Shown one piece after another: positions 18,301 through 52,300 of a DNA stretch of 64,000 nucleotides. The notes under the pieces were generated by a model. It was not told the DNA's origin and did no database searches. It was given only the letters and a program-made list of their open reading frames with translations. The stretch is from Ptychodera flava (Eukaryota; Hemichordata; Enteropneusta; Ptychoderidae). The position numbers and the translations under genes are program-made. Position 1 is the first letter of the stretch. The number at the start of each line of letters is the position of its first letter. The stretch lies in NCBI RefSeq assembly GCF_041260155.1, contig NW_027248399.1:461001-525000 (forward strand). The letters are read 5' to 3'.

Positions 18301-21300
18301 GACGTTTGGTGACATAATCACATCTTACCTGTCAGAGATATTGTTGCATCTACCGGTACATGAAGTGGTCAACCTTCATTGATTACTCTTCCCTGAAATA
18401 CTGCTGTAGCTTTTATCATAATATTTACTAAATTGAGTTTAACTGAGATGTGGTTCAACATATCTTGTTTATAACTCATCTTTCCCACTCTGTGTTTTTT
18501 TTTCAGGGGAAGAATCAGATTCTAGAGCATGCTGCAGACTACATAGTGGAACTTCAACAAAAATATGATAATTTATTGCTTGAAGGTGCAACCGATGGAC
18601 AAGGTAATTAATAAAGAAATAATGAAATGATTAAACGTCATCACAGAATATGGCTAATATTGCAAGCCATTTGATCAGTAAAAAAACTTGCTGGATATTC
18701 AGTGTGCTACAGGGAGACCATAGTGTAAAACTACATTTTAGTCACATCGTTTTAATTCCTCAAAGCAATTTCAATTTGCAGTTGTAAAGTTAAACACATG
18801 ATAATGATTACTCGGTCATAACCTAGATGTTAGATTTACGTTGTGTATTGTCATGTATTGTATTGCATTGAAATGTTATCAATACAAAAAATGGATTTGC
18901 TGTAATAGCCAATCACATCACATACCATGGTATTTGACAAAGTTCATAACACCCATGGTACCATGATGTACATGTAACAGAAATGCCACTAGTGAATCTT
19001 TTAATGCAGGAACATTGTCTGTGTATGTGTTCGGAGGTGCAGTGACACAAAACATTTTCTTAAAATTCATACATTACAGTCTAATGTGTCTTAGTAGACG
19101 CACATCATCATCAAGGTCTTGTGGATATGAATAATATGAACACAGCTGGCAAACAGAGGGAAACAACATTTGATATTTGCAATTTCTCATGTTCAAGTGT
19201 ATGTTATTTCAACCTTACAATGCTAGAAGACATACAGTGTGTTTACTAGAATATTTTCTCTATGTGTTTGTCCACAGCCAAAGAGATCAATTCACTGAAA
19301 GCAGAGAATGAGAGACTTCGGAAAGAGAACCAGCATTTCAGCAAAGTGTTACGCAATGTCAAAGTCAGCGCAGAGGGAGTGCCACAGCTGTTCACTGACC
19401 CCTTGGATGAGAGCAGAGCGACAGCCAATGAGAGCATGGATGAAGGCACACAGGAAGTGACGTCATCGAACCAAGGACCAGGCAGTGCTGAAGCTGCCAA
19501 TCAGGAGGCGGCTCAGTCACCAGCGTCCAATGACAGCACTGAGAGTGAGCAAGGTGACAACCCATTGGAGAATGGCGATAAGGTGTTCACCAGTCAAGAA
19601 AGCGCAGACATGGCTGTAGCGCAGACTCAAGGTGTTGTCTCTGTGATGTCATCACAGGCAGTGACTGGACTGCAGACAGTGCAAACAGTAAATCAAAATA
19701 TGGTTGTTGGAGCCAGCGCGACTCAGCCTGTGCCAGCAGCAACCCTGACGAGAAAACCAGGGGAAGTAGTGCAGAACCCAGTGCAGGTTGCTGTGTCCAA
19801 TCAGAATCAAGTTTGTAATTACATTGCTCCTGTACAGATGCTTGGTGGGACACCTGGATTACAAGTTGCTGCATCTAATCCACTGTCAAATGTTGTCAGT
19901 TACAACCCATCACTGATGTCCGCACCTGGACAAAACGTGATTCTTCCCAGGGTGGTGGTGGACAGGTCATCTTACAGCAGCATCCAGGTCAGAATCAAGT
20001 CGCCACGTATGTCATGCCCATGGTACAACAAGCCAATCAGAGTGTTGCCGTTGCCACCAGCCAATCAGGGCATTGCATTGATCCAGCAAAATAACCAGGG
20101 CATGACTGTCATGCAACCGGCCAATCAAGTTGCTGTCACTACTGTCACTCAGAGTATAAATCTGACAACACCAATCATGTCAACATCGAATCAAACATCA
20201 GGCGTGGTCACTTCAGCAATACCAAATCAACGGGATGTCAGGAGGAGTTCCACAGACTGTGTGAAATTGCTGAACAGTGGACAGAAAAACCAGAATCCAA
20301 GTACCAAGAAAAGTTCAAAACCAAAGTCAAAATCTTCAAAGAAGTCTGGTGACAGTAACAGTAGACATATTGCGTCAACTCCACAGCCGACAGCCAGTGT
20401 ACATGTCCCTGCTGGGGCGTCATCAGTGACTGTGCCAAGCCAACCGACCTGTCTCACAACTCAAGCTGTCAGTCAAATGCAGACCAAGGTGGCCCAAGCC
20501 ACCAATCAGAGCCTGGTTGTGTTACAGCAACCCAACCAGGGAACCCAGCTGATGGTGCAAAACCCGTTTGCTCAGAGCGCTGTCCAGGTCATGACCCCGC
20601 ACGGTCCTGTCACGGTTCCTCTGGTCAATAACTCTATTCCCATGCAGGTTGCTAATCACGGAATCCAACCGGGACACACACAGATCATTCAGACAGTGCT
20701 GCCGGGGCAAGTGTCACCAGCCGTGGCCTCGCAGGCACCCAACCCAGGCCAGGTACTTCAATCTGGAAACCAAACCCCTCAGTACATTGTCACTCAGAAT
20801 AGAGTACTGCAAGTAGTCAACCCTCCAACAGCGGTCCCTCAGCAACCCAAACAAGTTCTCATCAACTCCAACGGGCAGCTCATTCTGGCAAACAGTCCGC
20901 AGACATTCAGTAATCACATCCAAGTCTCTCAGCCTCACACCCTGGTAGCAGCGCCCTTAAGTCAAGCGCCAACCAGCCAAGCTATCCCAGCAGTCCAGGC
21001 ATCACAAGCTCAGAGCCTGATACCAGCAGTGTCTAGCCAAACATCAAATGGCCAGATCATCTCAACGATTCATATGTCAACAGCTGCAAGCACAGTCGCT
21101 AGCAAAGTGCAGCAACTCAACTCACAGGCTGTCAACACTCAACAACTGCATGTCTCCACCACAGTATGTTCCTCCGCTGCTGCAGCACCGTCCATCACGG
21201 CAACGATAGCTGCTGCCGCTCAACATACCAGCTCACCCAAAGACATCCTAGCCAGGGCAGCAGAGTCCATCTTTGCATCTAGTGTGGTTCCGGACTGTTC

Positions 21301-24300
21301 CCCACCACTGAATGTGTCACCTCTAAAAGTCAACAGCAGTGGAGCCCAGGCATCTGTAGCGACAAGAGTTCTTCCAGCCCCGGCAGTGTCCTGCTCCGCA
21401 CCGAAATCAACTCTGCCACTCATATACCCTTCAACAGCAATAGCTCAAGTAACGGCGCCGGCTAAACCAAAGAGGAGGCGGTCAAGACCTCAAAAGAAGA
21501 AAACAGTGACAGCGTCAACAGCACAACAGATTATAATGACACCGAGTGTCACTGCCACATCAGTGGCATCGACAGGTGGCGCTGTGTTGACAGGGCAGAC
21601 AGTGCCAGCTACCACGGCAGCACTGACAACCCAGACGTCAGTCACGTACTCGTCTCAAAGCCTCAACCAGTCTTCCAAAACCAAGCCAGCAGCTGATCAG
21701 GGAACAGCTATTTCAGATCCTGACAATGTCCAAGCTACAGACAATGCAACAAAAACACAAACATCGACAGAAAGCGAGAAAACTGATCTCGGGTCTTCAG
21801 CGGATGGCGGAGGTCAAAGTTCATCTTCGGGTATAAGTGTCAGTGGGAGTTCAATATTGGCCAACAGCCTCCTTGCTGCTGGTATTCTACCAGAAGATGA
21901 CCTTGAGGACGATGCTCCATTGACCATTGACACTGGAGATACTGAGAGCTCTTTGAAAGCTTTGGCGGATATGAGAGACTCTATTGTACATATGCCAGAT
22001 GAGACAAATGCTACCAAGTCATCAGATAGTATTGCAAATAACAGCCTGTCTTCAAGTGCCTCCGATACAATAAACGAGGTACCACCAACGACTCAGATTG
22101 CAAGCATTTCATCGCAGTCTGTGCAAATGAGTACTAGCACACTGACCAGTGTTGGTCCCCTGTCAAATGTTGCTGCAGTGCGTTCCACTGAAGATACTGG
22201 TTCCATGTCCACGGCGTCTGTCAGGGATGGATCTTCAGTGCAGAAGCAAGGTGCAGTATCTGACGTGACCCTTTACACACATCAAGGTACTTCCGTTGCA
22301 GCGTCTGCCTCGTTACAATCATCTTCTCCAATGCAGTCCAATTACTTAGCCAGCAATCAGAGTGCTGTATCATCGGCGTCCAATATCCAGACTTCCGTGT
22401 ACAGTCAGCCTCAAACCAGGCACTCATCCCCAGCCGCAACATTCGCCGTGCCGTCAGTATCCAACCCAAGTCCTTCCAGTAACACAACTGTGCCGTCGAA
22501 CAGTCCAAGTTTTGAGTCAAGTGCTGTTTCAAGTCAAGTTCACACACATCAGACAAGTCACCAGCTCCCAGGTGTTGGGATCCCCTCCCCTACTTCTAAC
22601 AATACCAATGTTCCCCCGAGAAATCAACAAAGCCTTGCTCATTTAAATGTCTATGCAACACATTCCAGAGCAGGGGACACCAGAACCACGCATTCAATGT
22701 ATACAACAGAAAGTGCAGTCACTCCGATATACACAGCTAGTCAGTCGCAGCAAAATGCTATGGTATCAAAATCAGCAGCACAGACCCCTGTATTGCCGTT
22801 TCCACAGATATTCCATCGTCCAGGCAGTGATGCTGCCAACCAGCTCCATAGGACATCATCACTGTCATCTTCATCATCATTATCAACAGCAACTATAACT
22901 TCTGGAAGCTTGACACCAAATGCAGTGGTTTCAGCTGGTCAGCTGTCCCCAGTGCTGGTCAGCAGACAGCCAGCGTGTGCTCCTACCCAGTACGTGCCAT
23001 CTAATCCTTTGAACCAGTCATCTCAAGCATTAATGAGGCAACCATCACCAAAGAGTACCACTATACCGTCACCGGGCACTGTTTCCCAGAGGCATGCAGT
23101 CTCCCAACCCTCCCATTTGAATGTAGCACCACCTCTGTTCTCAGTGACCGAATCTACCTCGGTTGCTCTATCTCGCTCATTGCCTGTAATGACCAACCAA
23201 CCCATGGCAGCAGCTGCCAGCCAGCGAGGCCAGCCAGTGTCACATCAACTGCCACGTGTTGCTGCAACCACTGCCACTGTGTCCACTCGTGCTTCGCAGG
23301 GTGCTGTAACACACAGTCGACAAGCTAGCGGAACAACAGCACAACACCACACAGGAACAAAGCCACAAGCAACACAACCTGCAACGTCGCAAGGTGTGTC
23401 CAGTCAGTTTTCAGCTGCATCCACTGTGCCCTCAACGCAAAGAAATACATCAGAGCCTCAGACCACACACTCACAGGAAACTGCTAAAGGACAGCGATCA
23501 CGAAAGAAGAACAGCAACACCTCGTACAGCGTCCAGAGTTTGAGTCAGAGTACCGTTGCAAGCAGACCTCCAACCACTGCCTTGACAGAGTCGTCACCTA
23601 GTCAGTTCTCTGCTGCAAGTGCTGCTGTAACACCAACAGCATCAAGTTCAACATCAAAGGAACCCACAGTGACTTCCCCGCCGTCACATGTGCCACACTC
23701 CTCACCCCATTGGAGCCATAAACCACCAGTACAATCCTACTCTTCAAGCACAAACTTCAACTTTGCTGTTCCATCCTCTGTCCCGGCGGCCTCAGCTCCC
23801 CACAGCATGGCAAGTAACTCCAACCAAGAGACCACTGCTTCTCCGTTTTACCTGTCAACTTCAGCCGGTCAACACAGTCTATGGAAGCCGCCCCCACAGC
23901 ACATGCATGGACGATCACAGGTGCAACTGCAGACTCCATTTTCTACTGACGATCCCTCCACAATGAGAACGCCAGACGCTTCGCAGATTGACACATTGCC
24001 GGGTCAAATTCATGGCGGTCAGAGTAATACGGGATCTGTGCCATTTACAAACTATATCAATCAACCAGGCATGATTCGCGGCAAAGAACAACAGCAACAC
24101 ATACAGCAACACCATCAACACCAGCAACAACACCAGCAACATCAGCAGCAGCAACAACACCAGCAACAAAGACAGGTTCGTCCACAGCAGTTTGAAAATT
24201 CTCCACTGCCATGTGTTTCTGAAGTTCATACAAGTGTCAGCGGGGGTCAAAGTTCAAGGCCTGTTGCTGCGCAGAGGCCGTCACCCCAACAACAAAGAGA

Positions 24301-26047
24301 TCAACACAGTAACAAGCAGCAGAAACAACCGCAACCATCGCAGCAACAACAATCCGTTCAGCACCAACAGCAGCATCCTCCAGCACAGCGACAACATCAA
24401 CAACAACAACAACAACAACAACAGCAAAGACAACAGCAACATCATCAACAACAACAAAGACAACACCAGCAACAAAGACAACAGCAACAACAACAGACAC
24501 AGCAACAGACAGCACAACAACAGCGGCAGCATCTCACTCACCAAAGACCACAGCAGCAACACATACCACAGCAACAGACAGCGCACACAGTGGCAACTCA
24601 CCAACCACCACAACAACCCCAGACCATGCAATCAATGCAGAGCCAGGTGAGTCAGGCTGACAAACAAAGAGAAAGCACCAACCAGAGACAGCAAAGAAAC
24701 AACAGTAACCGGGAACCTATGGCTAGAAACCAAGACAAGGTACCTCACAGTCAGTATCAGAGAACTCCACAGCAGGGACAGTACTCACCAAGTTCTTCTC
24801 AGAGTTCCATGTCTATGTCACAGTTCAACCCAAACCTTCACTTCAGCCAGAGAAGTCCTCTAGATGGCAGTGGTGCCAGTCTACAGCAGAGTGGCAGCAA
24901 TACCAGTGTGTCCAACCAAAACCAGCAACCTAGCGGCAGACAGAGTAAATCACAGGCCCAGAAGAGACAGCATCCTAGTGATAGCCAGCAGAACAAAGGG
25001 TCCAAAAGAATGACCACGGCATCAAATAGATCTCAAGGAAGCCAACAAAGTGTCAGACAGGAATATAGAAGTCATTCCTCAGATATGTCCAGGAATTCAT
25101 CAAATGCACCCAGAACTTCACCGGCGTCTCAGCCACAGAGCATTGGTCGGCAGCTTAGAGGTAATCATATTGACTCAGAAAGCCGGACTACACAGCCGGT
25201 TGGGTTAGATACCGCTGTATGGCCAGCGTTTCCTCAGAGAAACACAAACCCCAATATCGGACCTGATTTGAACAATGCACCGTTCCTAGGGTTTGGAAAT
25301 ACTCCCCAACATAGCAGCTATAACATAAGCGGCAGTCAGCCAACTACGAGTGCTACTTCAATGGACAATACCGGAAACTTCTTGCCAAGTTTTTCACCTC
25401 CAAGGCATCTCAGTGGACCGGATATGCCTACGTATTTCCCACCACCTTTACCAAATCATATCTTGACTAGTCCACCCCAACCACCAAAGCCAAACATTGG
25501 TAGAGATGCTGAAATCAGCGCTCCTTTCAATCCAATGTTTACACCATCCAGACCGTCTGGCATAGGGATGAATTTCCAGCCAAATTTTCCGGTATTCCAG
25601 GAGCACCAGCCTGGATTCAACATTGGAAAGACATCATCCGGAATAGCGCCCCCTATCACTTCAAATGTCACTGTAACACCTCATGTTTCGAATTTTAATG
25701 TTAGCAATATCTTTCCTGAGATTACCGGTGCCGGAACGAGTTCTCAGACTGAAAACATCGGCATGAACATTTCATCATTACGCCTTCCTGTACACGGCAA
25801 TCCGACCATCAACCTTGACCCCGGAGTGACCTCCTTGCACAACATGGGCAACAAACCACCGCCGCCGCCGCCACCTCCAGCTGGCCAACCATTCTCCAAC
25901 AGTGCCATGAGTATCAACAATCTACTGGGACCAAGCCACGGCGCTGAAGACAGACCCAGTATGAGACTTGGTCTCAACAGCACTCTAAGTACACCCTTCC
26001 ATTCATCAACATTTAACAGTGGCATACCACCCCTTAATCTGCCCTAA
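12390..26047 (+). CDS. USF3: USF3 (KIAA2018) orthologue: giant bHLH-leucine-zipper transcription factor, 5 exons
   Basis: Exons: 12390-12531, 14664-14760, 15975-16098, 18507-18603, 19278-26047. Together they give an intact frame of 2409 residues; human USF3 is about 2245. The bHLH spans about residues 84-146. The basic region is RQRSVHNAVERRRKNKIN, with the H, E and R residues that read an E-box; helix 2 is GKNQILEHAADYIVELQ. A leucine zipper follows at about 156-178 (EINSLKAENERLRKENQ). The remainder is low-complexity (S, T, Q, P, N), with recurring ANQ/SNQ motifs, a basic patch KPKRRRSRPQKKK, and a glutamine/histidine-rich tract. The C-terminal tail keeps the motifs SNFNVSNIFPEI and FNPMFTPSRP seen in vertebrate USF3, so both ends support orthology rather than a USF1/2 identity. 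The start is the first ATG in frame with exon 2; TTG codons upstream in the same frame are not used. Expected role: nuclear E-box regulator. Confidence 0.93.
15791..15869. mobile_element. Very short TTAA-flanked palindromic element
   Basis: A 71-bp stretch with imperfect inverted ends CCCTCTCAGACC/GGCCTGAGAGT sits between TTAA at 15791-15794 and 15866-15869, in USF3 intron 2. It resembles in plan the TTAA elements in the TMEM145-like gene but belongs to another family. Confidence 0.45.
16490..16987. repeat. Dispersed hAT-like repeat, copy 1 (left end eroded)
   Basis: This stretch shares long blocks with 49724-50960: CCCTTGC..AATGTCCCCAAAC near the start, GACCTTTGTTTTGCAT, GTGATTAAAAGTAA, CTAAAACACTGCACT-like blocks, and the end GGGACACAGTGTC...TGCAACACTG. 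The right terminus matches a CAGTGTTGCAG inverted end, but the left terminus is degraded. It lies in USF3 intron 3. Confidence 0.6.
17865..18009. mobile_element. hAT-type MITE, 145 bp
   Basis: The ends are CAGTGATCTCCCCAG and, inverted, CAGTGTTCTCCCCAG. CAGTG termini are characteristic of hAT elements. Inner halves share a GAGTGGCG block. I could not find a clean 8-bp target duplication. It lies in USF3 intron 3. Confidence 0.6.
24085..24640 (+). repeat. CAA/CAG-rich tract encoding glutamine/histidine runs in USF3
   Basis: Mixed CAA, CAG and CAC codons encode long Q/H-rich runs within the last USF3 exon. The mixed codons argue against pure triplet slippage and for selection on the glutamine-rich character; vertebrate USF3 also has a polyglutamine tract. 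Long reverse-strand open frames here are shadows of this composition. Confidence 0.85.
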
Positions 26048-33209: not shown

Positions 33210-36200
33210 CTAAGCTTTCAACAGGGCATTGACCACTGCTTTGACGTTCAGGTTTTTCAGATCACGGTAGGTCTGACCGGTGCCGACAAAGACGATGGGC
33301 TGTCCAGTGGTATAAGTCATGGATATGGCAGCACCAACCTAAAGAGATAACAAAAATATGTTAAATGTGCCGACTGCTACCCCAGATGTACATTTGAAAT
33401 CATCATGGCACAGGAAACAACGTTGTACAAAAATGTAAATGATACTTATATTTTTTGCTTTAGATTGAAAAGTATGTACGAAGTCAGAGTTTCAACAAAA
33501 TTGCTTCAGTAAGTGCGGTGTCTCTCAGTAATAAATATGTTGTCAATTACCAAATGCTAAATTTTCTACGGCTGTATCTCCCTGTGACTAAAAATTTCTC
33601 TATGACTACCATATGCTGCAAGATGCAAGGTGGATTAGTATGTATTTATGCAAATTGTATTAATGAACATTGTTTTGGTATAAAAATTGTATGGTAGTGA
33701 TGCCTTATCAATGTGGAATATTCATATATCTCACATCTTCCATGGTATACCGGCAGTGTATAATGGGCCATGTACTGTACCTTGTCATCAATGGTGTCAA
33801 ACTTGGTGAGTAATATTCCATCAATGAGTCGTGGATTATCCATGTTGGAATGATCAGCTAAGGCTTGGTTGAATTTCACTAACTGATCCACGGCTTCATT
33901 GCCAACCAGTGCCTCACCTACAAACATCACCAAGTCTGGCTGGTTGATTTTTATCAGCTGTGAAAGAAACAAACACCATAAATACAATATCACTGAGTGA
34001 ATCTCGCTTGAAAGACTGTCAACAATCCTATTTGATCCAACTCTTTTGTAAAGTTGCAGCTCTACTGAGGATGGGTAGGAATGGTTTGAATATATTGCAA
34101 ATGCATGGTAAAAACAACCTGCAGTATTGAGTGCTATTTTGATATTTCAAGCAATTACCAACAGCATTCTGGGTACTTGAATGGATTAAACATCAAATCA
34201 CAACTTGTACGAATCTAAACTCATTGTACATGTACACTGTAACCCCTAAGAAGGAAAAGCATTATGGATTTCAGAGATCCAAATGCTGGCATGTGATTTG
34301 AAACACTGGTAAGTGGCATTGGAATTTATTCAAGTTGAGGCACACATTGCCTTAGTATTTAAGTTTTCACTGTCATTGCACTCATAATAATATGTACATC
34401 TAATGAAATCCTGCAAAGACACCAAGGATAGCATGGTAACGGCAACAACTAGGGTATTGCCACCACTTGGTTGGTGTTCTATCAAGACCTTGATTTCTTA
34501 CCTTGGATAATGATCTCATGAGTGGTTCATTGTCCTGCATACGTCCAGCTGTATCCACCAACACAACATCAATACGACAGTCACGAGCTGTGTAACAAAG
34601 GTTTCAAATAATGAAAATGAAAAGTTAGTGTAATCTACTCATTGGCAATGAACATAAACTTTCAGAAATAATTTTCCAAAAGTTTGTGCATACCTCAGTT
34701 TTTGTTATGTGGCTGAACCAAAAATCAGAATATTGAGAATATGCTGTCAAGTGTTCATGGAAACTACCAGTAGAGTACTGTATTTCAAATCCTTGTTAGT
34801 AAGACATTACAAAACTTTAAAATTTACAATTATTACAATGATCCTTACCGTAATTAATGGCTTCCATAGCAATGCCAGCGGCATCTTTACCATAGCCTTT
34901 CTCATACAGCTGTACCATCTGAATGCCGCCATGGGCATCTGGTGGATGTAATGCATTCAGCTTGCGAGTGTGGGTTCTCAGCTGTTCCACTGCACCAGCT
35001 CTGAATGTATCGCAGGCAGCCACCAGAACACGGAAACCATTCTCAACCAACCAGAAACAAATCTGCAGGACACAATGATTTGCAAGTATTAAATGTCACT
35101 AGAGGGCGCTGTTGTCAAGTCATAATTCTGTCAATGGGCCTGAGAAAAACTTATTGCCTTGTTTCTGAGCCCAGATGCACTGGTTCACAGCTTATGAAAC
35201 TTATTTTGACATTCATTAAGAACAACTTTTACTGTCTTGTTTAATGAAAATTAAACATTCACTGTTTTACCAGTATGAAAAATTCATATAGCTCTCTAAG
35301 TTTGAGGTAATTTGCTTTTGTATCCAAAATATTTGCAGGTCAACCCCTGACATTTAATTGTGAATAGAATACATCCTACTCTACCAACATTTAACCTGCT
35401 AATCTCCGATTACTTGTAACAAGGTCCAAAATCACCATTGAAAACAATCAATTTGGACAAAACCATGGTGGATCGAGGGTATAAGAGTTTTACCTTTGCA
35501 AGATTAGTAGATTTGCCAACACCATTGACACCACAGAAAGTGATGACGTACGGCCTGTGTTGATTCTTGGTGTCCAGAACATCACGAAGGATATCAATAC
35601 GTCTGCGTGGAGAAAGGATTTGAACCAATGACTCATTGAGACTGTTCTTCACAGTGGATGTAATACCTGGTGAAATAAAACATGACACTCTGTCACAATG
35701 GTATGCTGGAAATGACAGACATTTGTAGCAAAATGTTGCAATGCTGATTTAGATTCAGAGATTTACATCAATTTGAGACAGGTGTACTGCATGATTTAAT
35801 ACAATTCGGGAATGACAAAGGATGTAATAGTATAACTGATTTCTTTTTTACTCCTTTATCATAATAGTTTGGCCCAAATCCATTGTTATGAATAATAATT
35901 ATGGGTCTGTTGATAGGGCATTGGACGGGGATGAACAGGTTCCACCTATCATGCAAATTATACCACAAGTTATGTTGATGATTATACAAGCAAAACCACA
36001 CATCCATGACTTTCGATGGGTACTGATGAGTATATTATGAAAGCCAGGTATTTCTTTGTAATTTTGACACAGGTTTGCAGACATCTACTCACGGTCAAAT
36101 GTTCCCAAGACTTTGCCTTGCAGTTTAGTGGCAACCGACTCACACAGTTTATCAGCAATATCAGCTGCTACATTCTTTGCTGCAGAAAAGTTAAGAAAGA

Positions 36201-39200
36201 AACAACCAATGAGTGTGTCAGAATTGTTAATTGTCTTTATACATCCATTTCTGGATATCGCAAGGAAATAAATTATTGTAAATTACTTCTCGCAATGAAA
36301 TGAATTATTGTAAATTACTTGTAATGAGAACATCAACAATCCAAGTTCTGTATGGAATCTTCATTTATCTGAGAGGGAAAACTAGTATTCATTCAATTTA
36401 GATGTGCTAAAGAAACACTGTCAAAAGAAATACAGTGCATGACTTTGAGGATATCAGTGCAACAGGCTCCTGATGTCACTACAGTTGATATGGTGTGCGA
36501 GTGGACTCTTACCGATCAGATGATCTTTCATCTTGTCAAGGGCAGGAGCTACGTCTTCCTTGGTCAGCGTCTTGGATCCAACCAGACCTTTGAACATGCT
36601 GAACACACCAAATCCAGACCTGGATGTACTGCAGTGACAACATTCAACGGTAAAATATCAGTGAATCATAATCTGAAAGCAAGGCATGACTGGTGATTAT
36701 TGGTATATGTATGTACAATTATCAATGCAGATCAGAAAAATAATAAAAACACTGCTGCTACTAAAAACTAATGTAAAAAAATTTGAGTTGTGTATTTTGA
36801 AAGTGTGTGCATACGTATGCCTGCACAACATCACCCCTTTTGGATGCATCTCTCCATTACACATACATACACATAGCCACATACTAACACACACCAGCAC
36901 ATATACCGTACATGCATTGTAAATTTAGATCAGGACATATATGTACATTCATAAACAGAGTTTATCAGCATGAAACAAATCAGTAAAGGAAGCACAGACT
37001 TACTTCTTCTTAGTAGTTGTTTCCTCTTCCTCAACTTCTTCATCTTCATCTTCATCTTCAGATGATTCAGTATCAATGTTGTCAAGCTCTCCTTTCATGG
37101 TACCGACAAACTCCATCTAGTCACATCACAAGAAACATGTGTTAAAGCCATGATTCTCAATACACATTTTTTAATGGGAAAAGCCCTAATTTGAAATCCC
37201 TGGGTCTCCAGGGTTAAAGCCCTAATTAATGCCATGACCTTTTATTTGTAGACTGTTCACAATGGATAGACGCTGTGTATATTATTTCTTTAATTTAGGC
37301 TTAATACCAAACATAATTCATTCTTTGCTTTACAGTAATCATGGCAAGAAGTGAGCACAGTGGTTGTACACCTTTACAGTAACAAACTTATCAGAGCAAG
37401 GCTACTTACAAACACAGCGTGTACATGTACACATGATATGTTTGTAATTGGAAACTAAAAGAGGTTCTGTACTGATATACAAACACTGATGCCAACAAGT
37501 GCTGATACCAAGCCAAAAATCTTGAATTTCTGCAAGACTTCACAGCTGTGTCAGCATTGCAATCCGACACCAGGGAAATACTCTGTCAACAAAATGTTGT
37601 TTTAGCTGTTGTATGATCTCTACTGACAGTGGACACTGTCTATGGGGACTGCCTACTTGCCACTTTGTCAGTTCACACTGGGAAAATACATTTGTCATTG
37701 TTGATAGAACATTCATAATTATTTGTACAATGCCTCAAAAACACGGAAAGGGTTACTTTGTTATTGTTTGTACATTTTATCCTTCAAATGCACCTGATAA
37801 ATGCATCTCATCAAAATTTTTTGACAAATAGCAATTTCATCTGTAACTTACAGCATCCTGTATGTCAGCATCGTTGACTCCATTGGTTGCTATGGTAGCA
37901 GCATCCTGATCTTTGCTATCACTGAAATCCAAGTCTTGGCATCCTTAGATGTGCCACCGTGAGACCAACACGAGCTTGTTTCTCTCTCTTCTTTGGTTCT
38001 TTTGTGTTCTTGGATTCTGGGGCACTCTTACTGAAAATTGAAAATTAAGAAAGGTCAAACATACATGGGACGTCCAGCGTTTTTAGAGGTTAAAAACGGC
38101 AAGCGAGGGTATTTGGTTGCGGATATAAGACCTCTGGAGTGAAAACTAGCATATTTGGCGGGAAATAATCACCGAGCGAAGCGAGGTGATTATTTCACCC
38201 AAATATGCTAATTTTCACCCCAGAGGTCTTATATCCGCAACCAAATACCCGAGCGCACCGTTTATAACCTCATTATAATATGCTAAAGTTAAAAACAAGT
38301 GGGCAATTTCGTTATTTAGGGCCGAAGTTGGAACGAGAGTTCAGGAGCGCGCAGCCTCATACAAACTCTAAAAAGAATGTTTCAGAATGCGCGCGCGTGC
38401 ACAGTTGAATTCATAAAATACGGTTACGCAACGCATCGATATCGCGATTAGACATCGAACTTGAAGAATTTTACTTAAAAAAACGCTCAAAAAACTTTAA
38501 AAAATCATGTTGTTGTTACATAGCCTCCGCTCCTTACAGAAACTCTTCATTTGTTGGTTCGTCAAGCTGCACTAGACTAAAATTTAACAAACAAAATCAA
38601 TCTGAAGCCATAGACTTGTTCGACATTATGGCGCGTTGAGCTCTCAAGTTGGCGTTCAAAATTTGCGCGAGCTCAAAAATGTTACGCGGCGCGCAGGTCT
38701 TCTTGTTGAGAATATAAACCCCGGCTCCAGCCAATCAGATTGCCGGATTCCAGCTAAGCATATTATAATCAATGATAAGTGGGAGGCGAAGCTGACTTTA
38801 TCATGGTTGTAATTTGTGATGAGAAATGTGACGGTAAGGGTAATGGTCTCTATAATCAATAAATACAGTCATTTAAATGACATCTTCCTTTCCAAGGATA
38901 ACTGCGAAAAGGTCATACCATCCGAGTAGAACAATGACTGTCCATGAACGCTATTGTAATCAGTAACACTGTACTACTGTTAAAGGGATGGTCCACCCAA
39001 ATATTAACCTGCCTTTAAAAGTTGAAGAAGATTATATTTGTAACATTCATGTTGAAAAAATGAAAAAATTATTGTTTATTGTCCGAGAAATTAAGTTTTT
39101 ATTTATGTTGTGTATGACGCCATTTTCGCTGTAAGGAAGCGCCACCTATCGGAATGCCTCCGCGAGGCTTCAACTTTGATGACGTAAAGTTTTCGTGTTG

Positions 39201-42200
39201 GGCTGAGGAAGTTAGGGGGTATCGCTAGGGGGTCTTATGTGCCGTTGGTTTACACTGAGATACAAGCACTACACTATGGAAACACCCGGCCTTCAACCCT
39301 ACAATTTCGAACCTGAATTCAGCGATTGCGAATTCCATGACTTCGAACCAGATTTGTCCGACGAATACATTGACACATCTACAGAGTCGGAAGGTGACGA
39401 CAGCATACACTCTTTCGATTCGGAAGAGAACCACGCTGAACTTGAAGGTAGCGACAACTGGTGTTCGTGTGGCAAATGCAGTGCAATGGCTTCGCAAGTG
39501 GAATGCATTTGCTGTCAAAAGTGTGACTTTCTACAAAGTAGACCAGAACTTGAACCAAACTCATGCATTACAGAACACGTCGATTTCAAAGTAGTGTGTC
39601 TTCACCCTGCTGTCCTTGGAACTGCGTTTATTCGACAAGAACTTAACCGGAAGCGTCGACATACCGACACTGTTGAAAGTGAAACCCTGTCAAACAAGTA
39701 AGTTGCGCGTTCTCTCTAGCCGTGTAGACCGTGTTTAGCCACATTGTTTCATCTTAGTTTCATCGGACGGGACCCGTGTAAGTTGTAAAGCCAGTGTATA
39801 AACCTTCGGATTAATTGATTCAAGTGTTCGTTGTTGTCAATAAATACAGTAAGTCGGCCGATGCAGATCAGTGGACGCTGACATTGGTCAGTGCGACTCT
39901 ATACTTGATCAAAACATGATTGACATGGCGTGATGACGCGACGTCCACGGTCCATGATCAAAGTAAACCAAATGCTTGCACGACCTTGTTCAAAACATTT
40001 TGAATGAGATAAGTCAAAGTCTTTGACTCGAACAATTTATGCCGACAACTAGTGCCTGGCTTTCGTCGGTCGACTACATGCCATGAGGTACAAGCGCAAT
40101 CATGACAATGTATACAATGTAGGGTTAGGTGTTTCCAGCTGCACGTTAATAATGTGAAGCATGATTACCAAATGTGGTTCTACCATGTCTCTATTGGAAC
40201 CCACACAGCATTTCCCTACTCAAAGTCAAACCACGGTCCCTCTCAAACCATGGACCTCTGTGCCGAGTCCATACTCAAAGAACTCGATCGTTCTTCATGG
40301 ATGTTAATGTAGTGGGATTGCCAATGGTTTATCATTCATATTATTCATAAACGATTGCTTTGAATTGATTGTTGGGGTGCAGGGCAACCGCCGACTTACT
40401 TGTTGAAGTGGGTCAGAGGGCTCCTCCCATGTCAGCAGCTCTAATTGTAGAGAAGTGGGTTTGTTGGCACATTGTACGAGGCGAAATTGTCTCTTCCTAC
40501 CTCCATGCTTGAACTATGACTGGGCTCAAATTACATAATTTTAAGAGAGAGAGAAAGAGAGTAGGACGATGGATATATTTCTGTTAATATTTTTACTCTG
40601 TCTTGTGAAACCGAAATCTGAAACATGTCCTCTATGTCGGCATTTACAGTCATAGTCTAGTGGTTAAACATAGTAGGATTTTGTTGGTAAAAATTATGAG
40701 CTGTTTCATTTGAATTACATTTTTATGGTAATAAATGTCCGTATTAAATGTCCATTTAGCAATACAGCAATTTTTGATGTCACTTATCCATGTAGTACCT
40801 ACCCTGCACTTGTGATTTTTAATTTAGACCAGGGTTTGACTAGAGAGTTATTTGTCACAGTTTAAATCAATGTGATATTCATTAATATTTCCTATCTTTG
40901 TTTTTTTAACAGGCAGTATCGTTTGGCTGCATACAGACAGTTTATTGCATGGGGACACTCCTGGCAACGTCTTGGTCAAGGTGTGAGAAAGGTTGTCCCA
41001 TCTTGTGTTGTCACTGCCATAAGAAACAAGTACCCAAAAGGAGACGGTGAAGATTGCATTGGGTTCAAGGAAAAGTAAGCACAACTACAACAGCATACAT
41101 TTGTCACTGCCGTTTGCCAAGGACACTCATACAAATCATAGACTTGAACATTTGTCACTGTCATCTTTTTTTATTGCACACAACACATTCATTTCTACAA
41201 AACTGTTAATATTGCTATTTACGATATATCCTTGATTCTGTCATAGCAATGACATTTGAGTCTTCTTTCAAAAACAGTGACATAGAAATTGTGGAAAGAT
41301 ATGCAAAGAAAGCATTTGTAAGAAGAAACATTTAAAAACACTTAAATCACATTGTTGTGGTATGATAAATACTGAAAGTTGAACACCAAGAAATGTTGCA
41401 ATATCACTATGCTTATCACTGCGAACTGTGACCTTTTTCACAGTCGATTTATGGAGTTGTTTTCAGCGAGAATCATTACTTCAGGCATATCTGAATAGCA
41501 ATAAAACACTGGATGGGCAAAACAGTTACATTTTTCAAGTTTCCTGTACTCAGTCTGAAATGAATAACTACAAGAGACTAGGTACACTTTAACGACAAAA
41601 TTTGTTCAGTGGAATCACTGCTACTGTTTTTTTTTCTACCTTGCTTTTTCGAATTGCTGCATTATTTGCACATTTCTGATTTGTCAGATTTATCTCACAT
41701 GGTGTTTACATGCGACACATAAAGTGACACTTTATTCATTCTGTAATTACAGTACAGCTGTACTGGGGAATGGGATGTCTAGATAAATAATTCTATATAC
41801 ATTTACATGCTAGCTTGTATTTTAAATACAATGTTTACAATAAAACAAATGACCAAGTAAATGTCTTGTGTAAATATGTTGTTTACAGGTACTGGTAGAA
41901 GACTGATAATGATAAGTACAGGAAAATAATAGCATTCAGGTCAGCAGAAGAAAGTACCATTTTCAGATATTGATAGCTGTGCTGATGACTTTTATGTTCA
42001 TAACAAGTTACATGTTTTCATTTATTTGCATTTCTTTTCTTTTGCATTGCGGTGCTATTGTCAGTTTTTTCATCGCTGAAACCGGCTTTGATACCTTTGT
42101 AGCAGATCTTCTTTTGGTGGTGCTGGCACAGGTGCTATATTCTTTGGGAGACTATTCACATGGTGTGTTCTTGTACTGGCCACTGGTACACTTTTGTCTT

Positions 42201-45200
42201 GTGCTATCTTTTGCAGCAGGGTGGATACTATCAGCTGCTTGGCCCACTCGTAGGACTTTTCTTCATACACTTTCTTCACTATCCATGTGTTGGTAGCTTT
42301 TGGACATACAGGTCTCCACTGCAAGTCACCATTCTTGTTTCTTCGATGGGCCCGGCCCACATTTGCATTGTGGTCGGTCGGTGCAGCAAGTTGGGTTCGG
42401 GCCAACATCTGCTCATAGTCAAACTCTTGACGTTTTGGTACGTATTTGGTCATCATACTATGGTAAACTTCAAGACTACCAGTATGACAGAATTCGCTGA
42501 GGTGTTTGATGTCCTTCAGGATTCTCTTATCAGTGACAATAGACATCAAGGCTTTGTGTGGTGCACTTCCCATCTTCATCCACTTCTTCTTTCTCTCAGC
42601 TTCTCTGCTGATGGGACCATGTACACACGCTTTCACTTTGCTAAACTCCCTGGGAAATTTGTGCTTATTGGCCACATGGTACCCAATTGATGACCACATT
42701 TCCACCAGTAGCTGTTCATCACCTTCACACTGAGCAGCACACCACCAGAGGTGATTGCAAATGGACTTGATCCAGGGGTTGAGATCTTCACACCCTTTCT
42801 TCTTTGCAGCTTGGGTCAGTCGCTTCTTGATTGAATTGGAGAAGTGCCATACGTCGAATTGGTGCTTTATACCTGGGTATTCTTTCAGCAACATGCTTCT
42901 GATTTGAACATGCCGGTCTGTAGCAAGGATGTTGATATTTATATTTGCACTGGTCAAATAATCCACAACTCTCTTGCATCCTTCTTTTTCCATCCTACTT
43001 GAGCTGCCAACTTCACTGCTTTGAACTAAACTGAAGTTTAGAATTTTGCTGGATTCCTCATCTATAACGGTGTATGTGCAGTATTTGGCACTGTACCCAG
43101 GTGAATCACACCGACCATCTCCGCAAATGTTGACTGTTGTTCTTGAATTATCTTGGATAATTGTTCTCTGCTCTTCTTCCCAAGCTGCATTGATGGATGG
43201 TGACACATAGTTCTTCTGGTTGAGAAAATATGTGGATTTGCCAATAAACTCTAAGTTGAGAAGCATGGCAAAATGACTGATGCGTTGATAGGATAGACCA
43301 CTGATCAGTATGGCAGCAGACACCAGTAGATTACCAGCAGGCATCTTGCCAAAACATGGTTGAGAGTCCCACTGTAAAATGCGATGTCCATTGAAACAGA
43401 ATGTTGTGACTGAAAGTAGTGTGCCATCTGTAGTTTTCTTCTTAGTGTCGTCAGGGGATGTGCTGCTATTACACTGGGGACAGGTTAAACAGTTTAGCAG
43501 AATATCTAACTGTTGCTCAAAAACTATGAATTTTCTGTCTTCAGCTAATGACTTGGCAATATCGCATGGTTCATCGCCTTCTGTGTCGGTGAGGCTGTCT
43601 TCAACTGAGTCTGGGTTAAATGACAGGTCTTCTACGTCATCGTAGTCGTCTTCTATTGATGACTGTGATGTGTCCATGTCTTGACTTGTGATGTCAGACA
43701 GTGTTGTTTCATGGGTATCTGATCGTTTTTTGCATGTTGGTGTGGATGTTGCATTGAAGGGGGATGTCATCATGATTCTTGGTTCTGGAGTATGGGATCT
43801 TTCGATATTTTCAACACTTCTAGATTTCTGGGAATAGGTGTGATCATGCTGGGTGGTTGTCACTCTTCTGGTGACATCTATGTTGCAATTTGGACACGGA
43901 GAGTATGACAGCTGTGTATCCAGGTCAGTCTGTACTGAAGCATCTTGTTGATTTGGGATAGTTTGGGTGCCAACATCATTACTTGCATTTTCCATGGTTT
44001 GAATACCAATTTCTGCAGTGTTGTGTTTTGAAATGCACTGTAACATAAAAAGATAAAATGCATCAGTCAGATTATTTTTTTTATAAATGCTAAATGATTC
44101 TTCTTGACAAGAAACAGTCTTCCTATCATATTTCTGAATATAAGTAATACAAAAAGTACAGAAATACCCACAATTCTTGAGTATACTTGTCCTCAGTCAA
44201 ATGACTTTATGATTTAACAAATCTCTTCATTACACATGGAAACTTGGTCAACAAGGTCAAAGCAAACTCTTTTGCCCATGGAAAGATATTTTTGTTATAT
44301 TATAGAGGAAATTCACATATTCCACATGCATTGAAACCATTTCAGCTGCTTATAACTTCAATGCAACTTACACAGTGAAACAGTATTTAGTGAATATTTA
44401 TAAAATTGTAATGTTTAATGTTATTCAGAAATTCAGAAAAAAAACAGTTTATACATATAAAACAATACACACCTGATCTTGACTTGTGAGTAATGTTGGA
44501 TGACATATGGTCCCATTCTGTCCAGATTCAACTACTATGGTGGTGTTATTGTCATCATGTCGCTTGACTTTTTTAACTGTTGGATTAATGAGAACATTGT
44601 TATGCTAAAGACGCACATCAAATGTATTTTGTACAATGCCATACCGGTATAGTTGTAAGATGAAAATTGTTCTAAGCTCATGCATGCATACAATACATCC
44701 AATTACAATTATCATCAAAAGTCACAGCTATGAAAATGATACAAGTTCGTTGATACCAAAAGCAGTGTTGTTTGACGTTATGTAACAAAAAATGATTGGT
44801 GATCATGGGTTCTAAATTTTACAATGAAATTTGAAATGCACTTACCAATGCGTTGGATCAGTTGATTTCCATTTTCTTCAACCAGTGCTTGCGTCTCTGA
44901 TTCCAGAATCAATTTGTCCACAAACTATAAAATTAAGCACAGAAAATTTTGATTTAGAATACATTGTGCTCATATATTCAATTAGTATACTTCAATATAA
45001 CTACTTAATCACCTTTCTATATATACCGGTAAAGTGTCTACGGACAGTGGGAGGATGGGGGGGGGGGGGTCAATTTTTCTTTTCACTATAATGGTCATTG
45101 AAGTGTAAACATTCAAGCGTCTCTCTTCTCAGTAATCAGACCAGTGTCCTGTCACGCTACAATTGATTAGAACTCTCTAAATTTATACTACAAACTGCTA

Positions 45201-48200
45201 AAATCAAATCCCTCATTGGGAAAAGAAAGTGACCAGTACGTAGGGAGGCCGCTACCACATGGCACCTGAACGAACTTTTAGTTCGTTCACCGTTCATGCC
45301 CGACATGCCCGTGAAAGTGAAAGCAAACTAAAGCACACGTTCAATAGAGTTCGACAAGAGCTCTATGCATGTAAACTAAACTAGTAACAAAAACACATGA
45401 AGCAATATCGCTTAGTTATCGACTGCCGAAATATTCCGGGTCCCGCAGCCAAAACAGCTTGCAGTGGGGTTGGGAAATTCAGTGCTGGAAACGACTTCGG
45501 CCGTAACTGTTGGGTACGGAAACGACCAGTTACCATAGGAAGCCATACTAGTTTATAATGCATGGAGTTGAACGGATCTTCGATCGCCTGGTGACGAAGC
45601 CAACTTAGCGACCAAATTGATATGTTTTCGGGCAAAACACTTCGATAAGCACTGCAAGCTATTATCGATTTGTCGTTAGATTTCAAACGCTCGAATAGAA
45701 TTGAATGTCGAATTTGCTCCACCTATTTAGCCATTGAAACGCTGGTTTCAAAATATGGACACTTCTTTTTAATAACAACGTACTTTTATCGAAAAATGGG
45801 AACTCAAAGTGCTAGTTGTCCAGCTGATATAAATTTATAGCAAGGAAAAGGAGTGACAGATTTCCGAGACAATTTCAAGGGAGGGAGGGAGACAAAGCGG
45901 ACGACCGGAAACGGCTCAGTTGTCAACTTGAAATGGAGTGTCCGTCGTCAAGCGAAACAATAGATGTTGTACACACTTTCTCGTGGCACAAAATTAAACT
46001 TCAAACACACTAAATGTCCTCGCGACAGAAAATTATACTACGATTTATCCTTTCAACAAGCAGACGTAAAACAATATTAAAATTTTCCTGTGTAATAACA
46101 AATCAGCTGGTCGTGAGCTAATCGGAAACCGCGGTTCTGAGTCGCCGTTTGTCTGCTGTCAACTTGTTGCAATGTCGATACCGACCACGGTACCAAAAAG
46201 AACCGTGAACAGACCTACTCGCTTCAAGGCACACAAATCATAAAACAAGCATAAAACAAGTAACAATCAAAAACTTAGCGAGAATTCCTTATAGATCGTT
46301 TCAGGAAAATCCGTCGTAATTCCGCATTAGAAAGTATACTTCACTTAAAAATGCGACAATTTATTTGTGTATTTTACAATGTAGGCCTAGTGGCGGAATC
46401 TCTAAGTATTTTTCGACTCTAACTTGCTTTTGCGGTACTTATAAAATTCGAGAAAATAAATGAACTAACAACACAAAAGCCGAATTATAAAGTTTAGTCT
46501 GACGTGTCAATATTTTGTCTACATGTAAGACAAAACTTCATATTTGCTCATGTCGGACATTTGCCTGCGATCCATAATGATGAACGTTATCATCTACGCA
46601 AAGCTTCTAATTCAGAACTAGCAGAGTATAAATGACTACTGACAAAATGTCTTCCCATGCACAAGAAATTATGCGATATATCTAGCATGATGTGATTTTT
46701 AGTTGTGAGAAAGTCGATCAATCCCTTTCCTGAATTCTTTGACACCCTTGTCAGACTAGGCATTTTACCGTATGGATCGTTTCCGGTGTTGTGACGCGGA
46801 CGCTAGTTGCGTTGTTGTGATGAAATATGACCGCGCAAAAACAAACCTTTGATTTCAATTGATAACACGATATTTATGTTTTTAAATACCTATGCGATGT
46901 CGTCCGAATAACAAGTATAACAAGTAAACTTTTTGGTGAGAAAGGTGATCAAAACACAACTCTCCGGCGGCTCAGAAAAATCATAAATATTGCCAACTAA
47001 CCTCTTTTCTGTTACGGAGAGAGTTTCTCTCAATCGTCTTTGATGTCCTCGAGCTCCTTTTCACCAACGTTTTCCAGTAGTTTTGCGGTACGGCACCATC
47101 TCGAAGTCGTTTCCTTATTCCGATTTGGTTGTGAATCGTCGAACTGCCGACAAAGTCATCGTCTTGAAAGTGGTCTTCGCATACGCAAAAACTTGAACTG
47201 TACTTATAGTTTTGAAAACTAATGTCAGTGCCGATGTTTAACAGCCACAATTTGCAGAGGCGGGGTTTTTTCATCGGGTTGGGAATGATATAGAATGCTT
47301 TATCCAAATCTCGCTCACGATCATTGTCACATCCGTAATATTTACAGGCAGGCATGTTTCCGTTGTTCCCGTGCACACAAGTTGTAGGTAGACGAGACTC
47401 CCTAGATCAGACCCCCTAGCCGATGCATCAAAACCCGAAAACTTTACGTCATCATCCGGGTATTTCTCCCGGCATGCTTTACGGATGAGTAGCAAATATG
47501 GCTACCCACAGTCGAATAGAAAAGGCTCCATATTGGCCGATTTTAATTTTTATTTTCGTGTATAACTTCAACAAACCGCACTTTCTGTGCAAAAAGTTAT
47601 GATAAATGCATTTCTGGCATAAATATACACCTGTATACAACAGATTATATTTTGGGTGGACCATCCCTTTAATACATGAAATCTGCTGGTAGAAGCACAC
47701 TCATCTAATACAAGACACTTTGTTTAATCAATAATACATTAATTTTGTATCTTTAAGGCTGATGTTGGAGTGTACATTTCACTGTATGTCCAAGCACAGC
47801 CCTGACAGTAAACATTGGTTTTCCTTTGACACAAATTCTCCTCTCTGCTTGTATTACACCAAGCTGCATTTTCGTGCAATGATATTAAAGCTGTAAATAT
47901 TAACCTTGTAACTCACCTGCTTTTCTTGCCTTTCATTTTATTGAATAACTTCTCCCGGTTCCTCAAGATCTCTTCTTCATTCAGGGAACCATCACTGTTC
48001 TTGTTGCCATTGGCAACTGGAGCTGACATCTTAGTGTCGATTTTTGCAGCTATGTAAAAGAAACAAAAAATTTTATTAACAGAGTTACAATATCCACCTA
48101 TACAAAAACTACTAATTCTGATATAGAAACCTTACACAATTTAGAGATAAAAATATTGATTCATATTTGAAAAGGGCCGGTAGCTGTGATTTTTGATGAT

Positions 48201-49280
48201 TTTTTTGCTGTTTTTTAATACGTCCATTGTAAGTTCTTGCTTTACTCCCAAAATTATGATAAACCACCTACTGTTCAACTTGCAACCACAGTTTATGTAT
48301 GTGTAGAATGTACATTTGAATTCTAGTCCAGAGTCGAGACCTGAATTCACATGTGAACAGTAACAATGCAGTTCACACATGTACAGGCTGAATTGACAAG
48401 CTGAGTACTGTGTATTTCAACATGCTTTGGAGAGTAGAGCAAGAAACCGTATTCGACACTACAAACAAAAACAGTGAAAAATTCATCAAAAGTAAGAAGA
48501 GTTACACACCCTTTACCTGCAAAAATCAACTGATGTCAAATATTTTTACACTAGATAACTGAACCATTTGATAATGGAAAAAATAGTCTGACATTTCCTA
48601 CTCATAATTGTATGGGCAAGCAAAACTGTATTTCACTGTACAAAAAGATGCCATACGTACAACAGGACTTTTGTTATTGACAGAAAGCTGATAAACATTG
48701 CCAGAATGACATATGATGAGTTTGACCTTGATAAATGAATGCAATCCTATTTAAGGACAAAAGAACTATTTCTCTTACTAGTATTATTGAATTAAAGCAG
48801 TGGTAAATTACTGTACCAGATGGTTAGTGTGGGTGCTTTAAAATTGCATAATACTGTACCTACTGTTTGTAAAAGCATTTTTTGTATTTTACTGATACAC
48901 AGAGTTCAAGGTATACAGGACTGTGATTTCACAAATAATACGTTTGAATTTATGTATATTCAATTTAATAATTCACTCCAAATTTATCCATTGTTGTGAA
49001 GACAAATTCTGATATCCTAACTCATAGATGAAAATGTGAGCAAAACAGACAATATTCTGCTACTCGTGTGAAAAAGAATTCCCTAAAGAAAACAGTCCTC
49101 TGATTTCGGTCTGTTACTATGGTTACTATCATAATATACAATAAAATCTTCAAATTCATGTATATTTCGTCCAACTATTCACTCCTGAATTCTCTCCATA
49201 GGGACCTGGGTATATGTTGTAAAGACAATTCATACAGTGATTCAACAAAAATGCTCAGCTGAAAATGTGTGCAATGCAAT

Positions 49281-49314
<34 letters not shown>

Positions 49315-52300
49315 GCTTCAAGAATCATCTGGTTGTTGGTCACTATTTCTATGGTTACTATTTCTATGGTTACTGTCATGTCTCACACACTTGATCAATC
49401 ATGAATGATTCCATGCCGCTTACCATTTTTCTTATTTTTATTTTCCTTTTCTTTCACCTTCTCATCTTTCTTGGGATCAATGATCATCGAAGACACTTTC
49501 TTTTTGGACTTCTCAGATTCCTGAAAAGTTCTCATCTGAAAGATAATGTCAGGTACATGTTAGCAATGAACACAGAAGTCACACTTATTATTCTCCCAAA
49601 GTCACAAGAACAAGCAGTTACTTATTGCTGCATAGGCTATGCTACAGAGCAGTATAACAGTTTATTGTTTGTATATTTGATATACCGTATAAATTGTGTT
49701 CTTGTTATCTTTGCAGTGAGTATCAGTGTTGCAGCCAGGATGCGCCCTTGCAATAATGTCCCCAAACAAAACCCTTTATCCCACATCCTCGCCCATCTTG
49801 GGTCACTTCGGGTGCACGCACTTATGTGTTGACTGTGCTCAATGGGTGTAGTCTGCCAGTAATATGTGTGTACTGACGATGGCCTTTGTTTTGCATTATT
49901 TTGAGGATTCTATTTACGTATTTTTGAAGCTGTGATTAAAAGTAACTAAAACACTGCACTTGGTTGTAGTCCAACTTAACTATGATTGAAGGCAGATATC
50001 GTACTGTTACAATTGCCTGAAATTAAAAGCATAACGACGGACCCCCCCCCCCTTGAATTTTGTTTTATTTTGTGAAATGAATTTTATAATAAAAAATACC
50101 GCAATTATACGGTGTCGCTCAAATTTGATCAGAATTGGTACATACCAAAGATCAACAATAAGTGTTATTTCTATCTGTTCAGTGCAGGAAAATTATGCAT
50201 TGATTTTATGACAATTTCTGCACAGTACAACCAGAAAAACAACAAGAAATACAACCAGAAAAACAACAAGAAATATTTAAACAAGAAAATTAAGAATGAC
50301 AAAAGTAATTAAGGTCTGAAACTTTAGGTACTGAAGGTCAACTTTAGCAACATGCGTAGCACGAGAATCTTTCTACCATGGATGTACAAAAATAGACATC
50401 CATATGGTTTCAGCAGATCTGTTAATATGTCACAGTTCATAAACAATGACAGGAAATGACAAATTAGCTGTTTCAGTTACTGCTATCACTCCCAAACATA
50501 ATAGGTACCCTGCATACAAATACGTTAAAGGTCAAAATCCTCTTATTCAGATGTGTGGGCTGATTCAGTTCACTGCCACCACTCCTGCACACTTGCAGTA
50601 TTTCCTTTTTTCTTACCTCATTTGCACATTTTCACACTGATGTGTTAATTTGAACAATTCACATCTCAACCCCTACATCTACCTGTACACCAAATACTGA
50701 GATGGTAGCTTTGGCGGTATGGGAGCCTTTGTGTGTGACGGACATACATCCGCACATACCCACAAATATACAGACACAGACGCCACTCAGACTCATCATA
50801 TAAGCTCTTTTTTGTATTTATATATAAAACAAAATATGAGCTAAAAAAACATTTAATTGACAACTGACAATGTTGTCTCCAAAATGTGTAAAATGTCCCC
50901 CAAAATAAACAGCAGTGGGACACAGTGTCCTGTGGTTTAAAATATCCTGGCTGCAACACCGGAGTATATCTGTGATCAAAATATACAGCACTGATTACAT
51001 GACACGCTTATATGAACTGGGTCAGTCTATCTAGACTACAGGGGAGTTTTGAAAATGTACATGTAAACAATTGAATCAAATAACATGAACTATAAACTAG
51101 TAAGTCTGTAGAATGTCAACAGCCTCTGTGCCATTTTGTCCTACTGACTTTGTGAAGTACCGTAGTTGTGCGATATACAAGTGCAAACAACATGTATCTT
51201 GTTTTTTTAACAATCAGTCATATGAGAAACCTCTGTGTATAGTCATTTCTTACATTATTCCAAACACAGTTGGTTACATTGATAGAAATGAAGTCAACTT
51301 GAAGGACTGTAAACTGTCTACCAGATTTTCAAAACGAAAATAATATGAAAATTGCGTTTACATTGTATGCTCAGTACGAAGTGAGAATAACCATATTAAC
51401 AAACCTGTTTTGGTTTTTTTGCTTCTACTTTTCTAGATTCTTCAGCTGCTTTCAACATCTTCTGAAAAATCTCCGTAAAACAGTCATAGGATCGACTGAC
51501 ATTCCTTTCTTTCAAGTCATCCTTGTATTTATCCCGGAATTCTTGATGGACATCGTCGATGAACTTGTCAACATATGACAACGTCAAAATCTTTTGATAC
51601 GCAACCTGCAGAAAAATCAAAGGATCAATGCTTTGGTATTGGATAAATCTTGGGACCGAAAGCAATGCACTGTGGGTAAAGATGAACAAATGGAAGGGGT
51701 AGATGAGGTGATACTAGAATGGTGATAGGATGGGAACTGTACAGACCTGAGTTTGCTATCTGCTATTACTACATTCAATGGACAAAAAGTACCCTCTCAC
51801 CGATCTCATCAACATCACCTATCCATGTTAATTTTGTGTTTGAACAGAAATTGCAATCGTGATGCAGGAAACTGTTTCTGGTTGGTTTGTTTAATACATT
51901 GGAAATAAAAATTTAGTTTTATAATACGGTATAGTACACTGCAGGTATAAGGATTGACAGTTTCACTTCTTTTCCCATTTTGTAACATCGCAAACAGGAC
52001 TTGCATAAGATGATTTTAATTTCAATTCATGTTGACTATCATTGAACACAGTCAAAAACTGAGACGATGATGTGATCACGTTCCAACTTACCACAAAAAC
52101 CAATTCAAATTCATTGTCTAATTTATATTTTAGAGTCAAGGCTTGGTGGTTGATGTGTTGCTTCCGCCCCTCTCCTGTAAGAAGAAAAGTATGATATGTA
52201 TAAGGTGTATCTTTATAGCCAATCAGTGGCATGTATAAGACATGTTGAGGACAAGGTGGCCTAGGCTATCAATAATAATTGTAACACACCTCATCCGCAG

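Follow-up and report, generated by a model that had tools for sequence, protein, structure and literature searches.

A 64,000-nucleotide stretch of the genome of the hemichordate Ptychodera flava (contig NW_027248399.1, positions 461,001 to 525,000; hereafter the window) very probably carries a complete-looking, two-gene Kolobok transposon of the KolX-bearing (Kol0) kind, situated in an intron of the gene for signal recognition particle (SRP) receptor alpha. This confidence covers the identity of the element and not the role of KolX. In the available text of Kojima and Bao (2022, PMC9587614), which credits Kolobok to Kapitonov and Jurka, KolX is the second protein encoded by the Kol0 lineage and is stated to have a ballast fold and to resemble residues 476-595 of human P2X7; P2X7 is held to have arisen when a P2X4-like gene fused with a KolX. 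Because that link has been published, the element described here is a further, hemichordate example, for which the main inference had already been made. A literature search for a Kolobok transposon in P. flava found no paper, although the family may still be listed in Repbase. The claim about the origin of the P2X7 tail is thus not itself new. The interest of the window lies in a hemichordate element, apparently intact, of the type thought to have supplied the tail of a major inflammation receptor; since both frames are open, the original function of the ballast fold could be studied with it.

Termini and genes of the element

The element spans 8,685 bp (38984-47668). The 18 bases at one end are an exact inverted copy of the 18 at the other (AGGGATGGTCCACCCAAA), with the 5′-RR ... 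YY-3′ form seen as AG at the left end and CT at the right on the plus strand, and TTAA stands directly outside both ends as a target site duplication. When the window was searched with a 20-base pattern comprising the 18 bp and two flanking bases, allowing up to three mismatches, only the two element ends were recovered, compared to a mean of 0.01 occurrences in 100 shuffles.

Two genes converge within these ends, each pointing inward. The KolX (ballast) gene encodes a protein of 195 amino acids, and its single intron has a GTAAGT donor and a CAG acceptor; the database holds an identical named P. flava protein whose gene model agrees with the predicted splice sites. The only Pfam domain above cut-off in this protein is P2RX7_C (E 3.9e-15, 56.7 bits against a cut-off of 23.5), with no P2X channel domain, and its structure model matches the ballast fold. 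An NCBIfam search with KolX gave no match.

The four predicted exons of the transposase gene join into a stop-free frame of 834 amino acids (831 with the alternative acceptor). The first exon encodes a THAP domain (Pfam E 4.3e-12), which is usual in the Kolobok superfamily (excerpts of PMC6004289). Acidic residues of the core are D486 or D490, D553, the DxxH at 574-577 and E702. The 14 aligned relatives share GDGRCD, DRH within TDRH, D and H within DxWH and E within HTGxLE without exception, and 7 of the 14 match PF20700 (Mutator). Between DxxH and E lie cysteine and histidine residues that appear zinc-finger-like, numbered C336, H353, H358, C370 and H372 in the close P. flava relative P0122 and at least 90% conserved in the 14 rows. 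P0122 and the window transposase differ in 6 of the 552 residues aligned and by one further codon; P0122 is on a different sequence record from the hemichordate ballast protein P0001 and therefore represents a second copy or an allele. A structure model of P0122 matches ISCth4 and Hermes and, weakly, the P element transposase, while in NCBIfam it reaches IS256 only far under the cut-off (E 0.0053, 15.8 versus 150 bits). A more distant Kolobok-like P. flava protein, P0196, is 41% identical.

The two genes also have a sequence in common. A 19-bp sequence, TGATGACGTAAAGTTTTCG, forms an inverted pair lying 193 and 214 bp inside the element ends, and both copies end 81 bp before a start codon, one that of KolX and the other that of the transposase. 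Aligned to each other, the inner regions of the two ends scored 21.0, whereas none of 500 dinucleotide shuffles exceeded 13.0. Masking the 19 bp lowered the score to 12.5, a value reached by 4 of 500 shuffles, and likeness beyond the 19 bp is weak. The 19-bp sequence is a candidate promoter or protein-binding site common to both genes.

A first-pass annotation of this DNA had described exact 18-bp inverted ends with TTAA flanks, a spliced THAP-DDE transposase on one strand and, on the other, an intact two-exon gene akin to the cytoplasmic domain of P2X7, together forming a Kolobok-type element with its own ballast gene. This description is borne out by the ends, whose pattern is unique to the two sites in the window, by TTAA, and by the two open frames and their domains.

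Table 1. Features of the Kolobok element, in order of position in the window
Feature	Position	Strand	Basis and remarks
TTAA target site duplication, left	38980..38983		sequence
Left terminal inverted repeat, 18 bp exact, AG start	38984..39001	+	repeat comparison, pattern scan
Left subterminal block	39177..39235	+	first 19 bp (39177-39195) identical to right copy
KolX / ballast gene exon 1	39276..39697	+	open frame, Pfam, splice model; extra in-frame ATG 13 codons upstream
KolX / ballast gene exon 2, stop codon included	40913..41078	+	splice model, database gene model
Transposase exon 4: DDE core with DxxH, stop codon	42070..44037	-	open frame, alignment
Transposase exon 3	44473..44576	-	splice-site prediction; first base 44576 or 44567, frame kept either way
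Transposase exon 2	44846..44924	-	splice-site prediction
Transposase exon 1: start codon and THAP domain	47002..47355	-	Pfam, splice prediction
Right subterminal block	47395..47454	-	19-bp element 47436-47454
Right terminal inverted repeat, 18 bp exact, CT end on plus strand	47651..47668	-	repeat comparison, pattern scan
TTAA target site duplication, right	47669..47672		sequence

Several points weigh against our interpretation. Placement in Kol0 relies on the encoded KolX with its ballast fold rather than on sequence comparison with Repbase, the role of KolX is proposed by analogy, and the transposase splice sites are predictions. The transposase core alone gives a sub-threshold MULE match in Pfam (E 0.013). 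P0122, at 553 amino acids, lacks the THAP part, and the gene model of P0002, a second P. flava ballast protein, is shortened to 129 amino acids. Further P. flava genes, on records sized 564,961, 589,952 and 29,013,476, may be alleles or alternative haplotypes and not other copies. Finally, no second complete element was seen in virus, prokaryote and phage collections or in the window. Scans of virus contigs (with KolX, a class-ii ballast alignment, P0088 and a transposase alignment), of prokaryote genome contigs (queries A2 and A3) and of phage records (P0001) yielded no confirmed relative; few are to be expected in such collections. Since these scans gave no relatives, the evidence that KolX and transposase occur together in other elements is that of the published paper.

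The insertion site was assigned from the host gene. Exons of SRP receptor alpha flank the element on both sides on the minus strand, the same strand as the transposase gene (window 33646-51713), which places the element in an intron of that gene. The N-terminal part lies within 51399-51713 (PDB E 2.8e-12; Pfam E 5.2e-18), and the C-terminal part within 33646-34146 has a clear PDB match (E 5.7e-27); a Pfam search of frame 33649-34146 from this C-terminal part gave no match. Candidate intermediate exons, read by eye, are near 47916-48050 and 37857-38040, and a peptide joining the two presumed exons had no match to an SRP receptor in PDB. The presumed exon near 37857-38040 seems by eye to leave one frame, perhaps through a sequencing error.

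Other features of the window were recorded. A foldback at 38086-38271, 0.7 kb from the element, has 73-nt arms that are 89% complementary and 40 nt apart, and is possibly a small non-autonomous transposon. Elsewhere are two copies of a 70-nt repeat (4243-4312 and 4959-5028; 76% alike, 716 bp apart), a run of 32 G (49281-49312) and a plus-strand open frame (19250-26047) whose 2,265 amino acids are rich in Q and S and gave no match in Pfam at E 0.01. An Rfam scan of the window at gathering scores returned no match.

The role of KolX and alternative readings

In the mechanism we envisage, the THAP domain of the transposase would bind the element ends and its RNase H-fold DDE core would cut and join at TTAA. 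KolX, a ballast-fold protein predicted to bind zinc, would be a non-catalytic partner that may help assemble or localise the transposase-DNA complex, like the second protein of PIF/Harbinger. Both genes, each behind the same 19-bp sequence, are probably co-expressed. That the element is active is likewise an inference, and by analogy with Harbinger (excerpts of PMC9710019) the odds are about even that KolX is a helper in assembly or nuclear localisation.

The GDP contacts of P2X7, named in the available text of Rump (2020, PMC7016195), bear on a more specific proposal, which we consider improbable: KolX would act in trans as the source of guanine nucleotide for a reaction like that of the P element, with the P2X7 GDP site as a relic of this function. 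If true, KolX would replace in trans the GTP domain built into the P element, and the P2X7 site would be a former transposition cofactor site. Consistent with this, the equivalents of rat P2X7 R546 and Y550 are kept in 61/61 rows of the ballast alignment and that of R578 in 60/61, and the K583 position is K in the window protein. Moreover, the P element transposase, which also combines THAP and RNase H, needs GTP (PMC7776569, in part). However, the R574 position is V in 59/61 rows and the K583 position is S in 53/61, the same text of Rump reports only R546 and R578 as kept in invertebrates, and the conserved arginines may instead have a part in the fold or in binding nucleic acid. The kept R546, R578 and Y550 equivalents leave a nucleotide or nucleic-acid role for KolX possible. 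A fragment of the abstract of PMC9859053 uses the word 'unknown' in connection with the sites for GTP/GDP and for zinc in the P2X7 ballast.

Somewhat less probable still, the ballast gene could be a host gene picked up as a passenger, or a later insertion into a one-gene Kolobok. In favour of this, the virus and prokaryote scans revealed no second complete copy at the DNA level, and its own intron gives the gene a host-like appearance, although the transposase model has introns too. A separate insertion might have left inverted arms, but no exact inverted 11-mer arms surround the gene, although shorter or diverged ones could remain. The gene also has in common with the transposase the promoter-side 19-bp sequence at the same 81-bp spacing, and KolX has been reported to be the Kol0 group's second protein (PMC9587614, in part). 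Transfer in the opposite direction, from the P2X7 receptor to the transposon, is very improbable: the fold and cysteines are common to both, but channel-free ballast proteins occur in sponges, cnidarians and molluscs, and typical P2X7 is found only from bony fish onward (available text of PMC7016195). The sponge and mussel proteins P0004, P0005 and P0006 are further channel-free examples, and our tree, with three mammalian P2X7 rows alone, does not bear on the direction.

Ballast classes and the P2X7 tail

The P2X7 tail is kin to the KolX class of protein. A ballast tree of 64 rows and 114/184 columns, including three P2X7 rows (all mammalian), does not resolve the source of P2X7, whose branch length is 3.88; the bootstrap had not settled, and the analysis warned that long branches were meeting. 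The six KolX-like rows group together (support 100/99). Apart from them stands a branch (99/97) of 52 rows, to which P0085, P0088 and P0089 do not belong. By pairwise score, human P2X7 is most similar to P0088 (188.0, against 110.0 for P0001). The window KolX is not the nearest relative of P2X7 by this measure, and the best scores go to another ballast class.

These results bear on the proposal in the first-pass annotation that the ballast domain travels in transposons as cargo, which would explain the P2X7 tail. The proposal holds in kind and is not new, and 'cargo' is a poor word because KolX is the standard second protein of the Kol0 group (available text of PMC9587614). The idea that the lineage of this particular copy donated the tail finds no support in the tree, given the long P2X7 branch and the better scores of the other class, and the tree fits either outcome.

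Among 121 ballast proteins, the second class is represented by 102 that match a RSLRRGIGSMDYI-like N-terminus (RSLRRGxGSMDYI-like); P0034 and P0088 are examples of this large class. Another 3 have RLLSQGRGS-like or MEFAKNML N-termini, 5 are of the PYxFEP type and 11 match none, of which P0031 and P0100 resemble the first class by eye. P0017 and P0108, among the second-class or RLLSQGRGS-like proteins, have a cysteine-rich N-terminal extension. The motif L/I-x-P-Y-x-F/L-E-P is common to P0001, P0004, P0005 and P0006 (hemichordate, sponge and mussel) and to P0002, whereas the other 116 proteins do not match it; P0117 has a similar VPYAFHP. L-x-P-Y-x-F/L-E-P was considered as a transposase-contact motif and dropped, as only 5/121 match, one of them the shortened P. 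flava protein.

Stand-alone ballast domains, channel-free in sponges, cnidarians and molluscs, were described by Rump (2020), who placed typical P2X7 from bony fish onward and did not find it in jawless or cartilaginous fish (available text of PMC7016195). In the available main text of that paper neither 'transpos' nor 'THAP' occurs, and a 'TAHP' domain is mentioned for an Ixodes protein. Which class, KolX or the second, gave P2X7 its tail, and whether the second class sits in transposons, would merit a study of animal genomes.

Comparison with known systems

Like Kolobok Kol0 elements with KolX, the P. flava element has the TTAA target, RR/YY ends, a DDE transposase with D/CxxH and a ballast-fold second protein. 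It differs from the published Kol0 elements in its hemichordate host, its 18-bp ends and its paired 19-bp subterminal sequences. KolobokP elements carry long terminal direct repeats, a feature absent here: no direct repeats of at least 60 nt were found inside the element, and the two such families in the window lie outside it, although diverged repeats can escape this search. The P element and THAP9 likewise combine THAP with an RNase H transposase. However, the P element has a built-in GTP-binding insertion domain and 8-bp target duplications, whereas TTAA and a separate ballast protein are found here (PMC7776569, in part). The window protein is 24-31% identical to the P2X7 ballast over the aligned part and lacks the channel domain, and in the KolX/ballast family the GDP contact R574, and mostly K583 as well, is lost. 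Nanor of fish is likewise a stand-alone ballast protein, but this zebrafish protein is not a transposon gene and is likely a domesticated KolX, according to the available text of PMC9587614.
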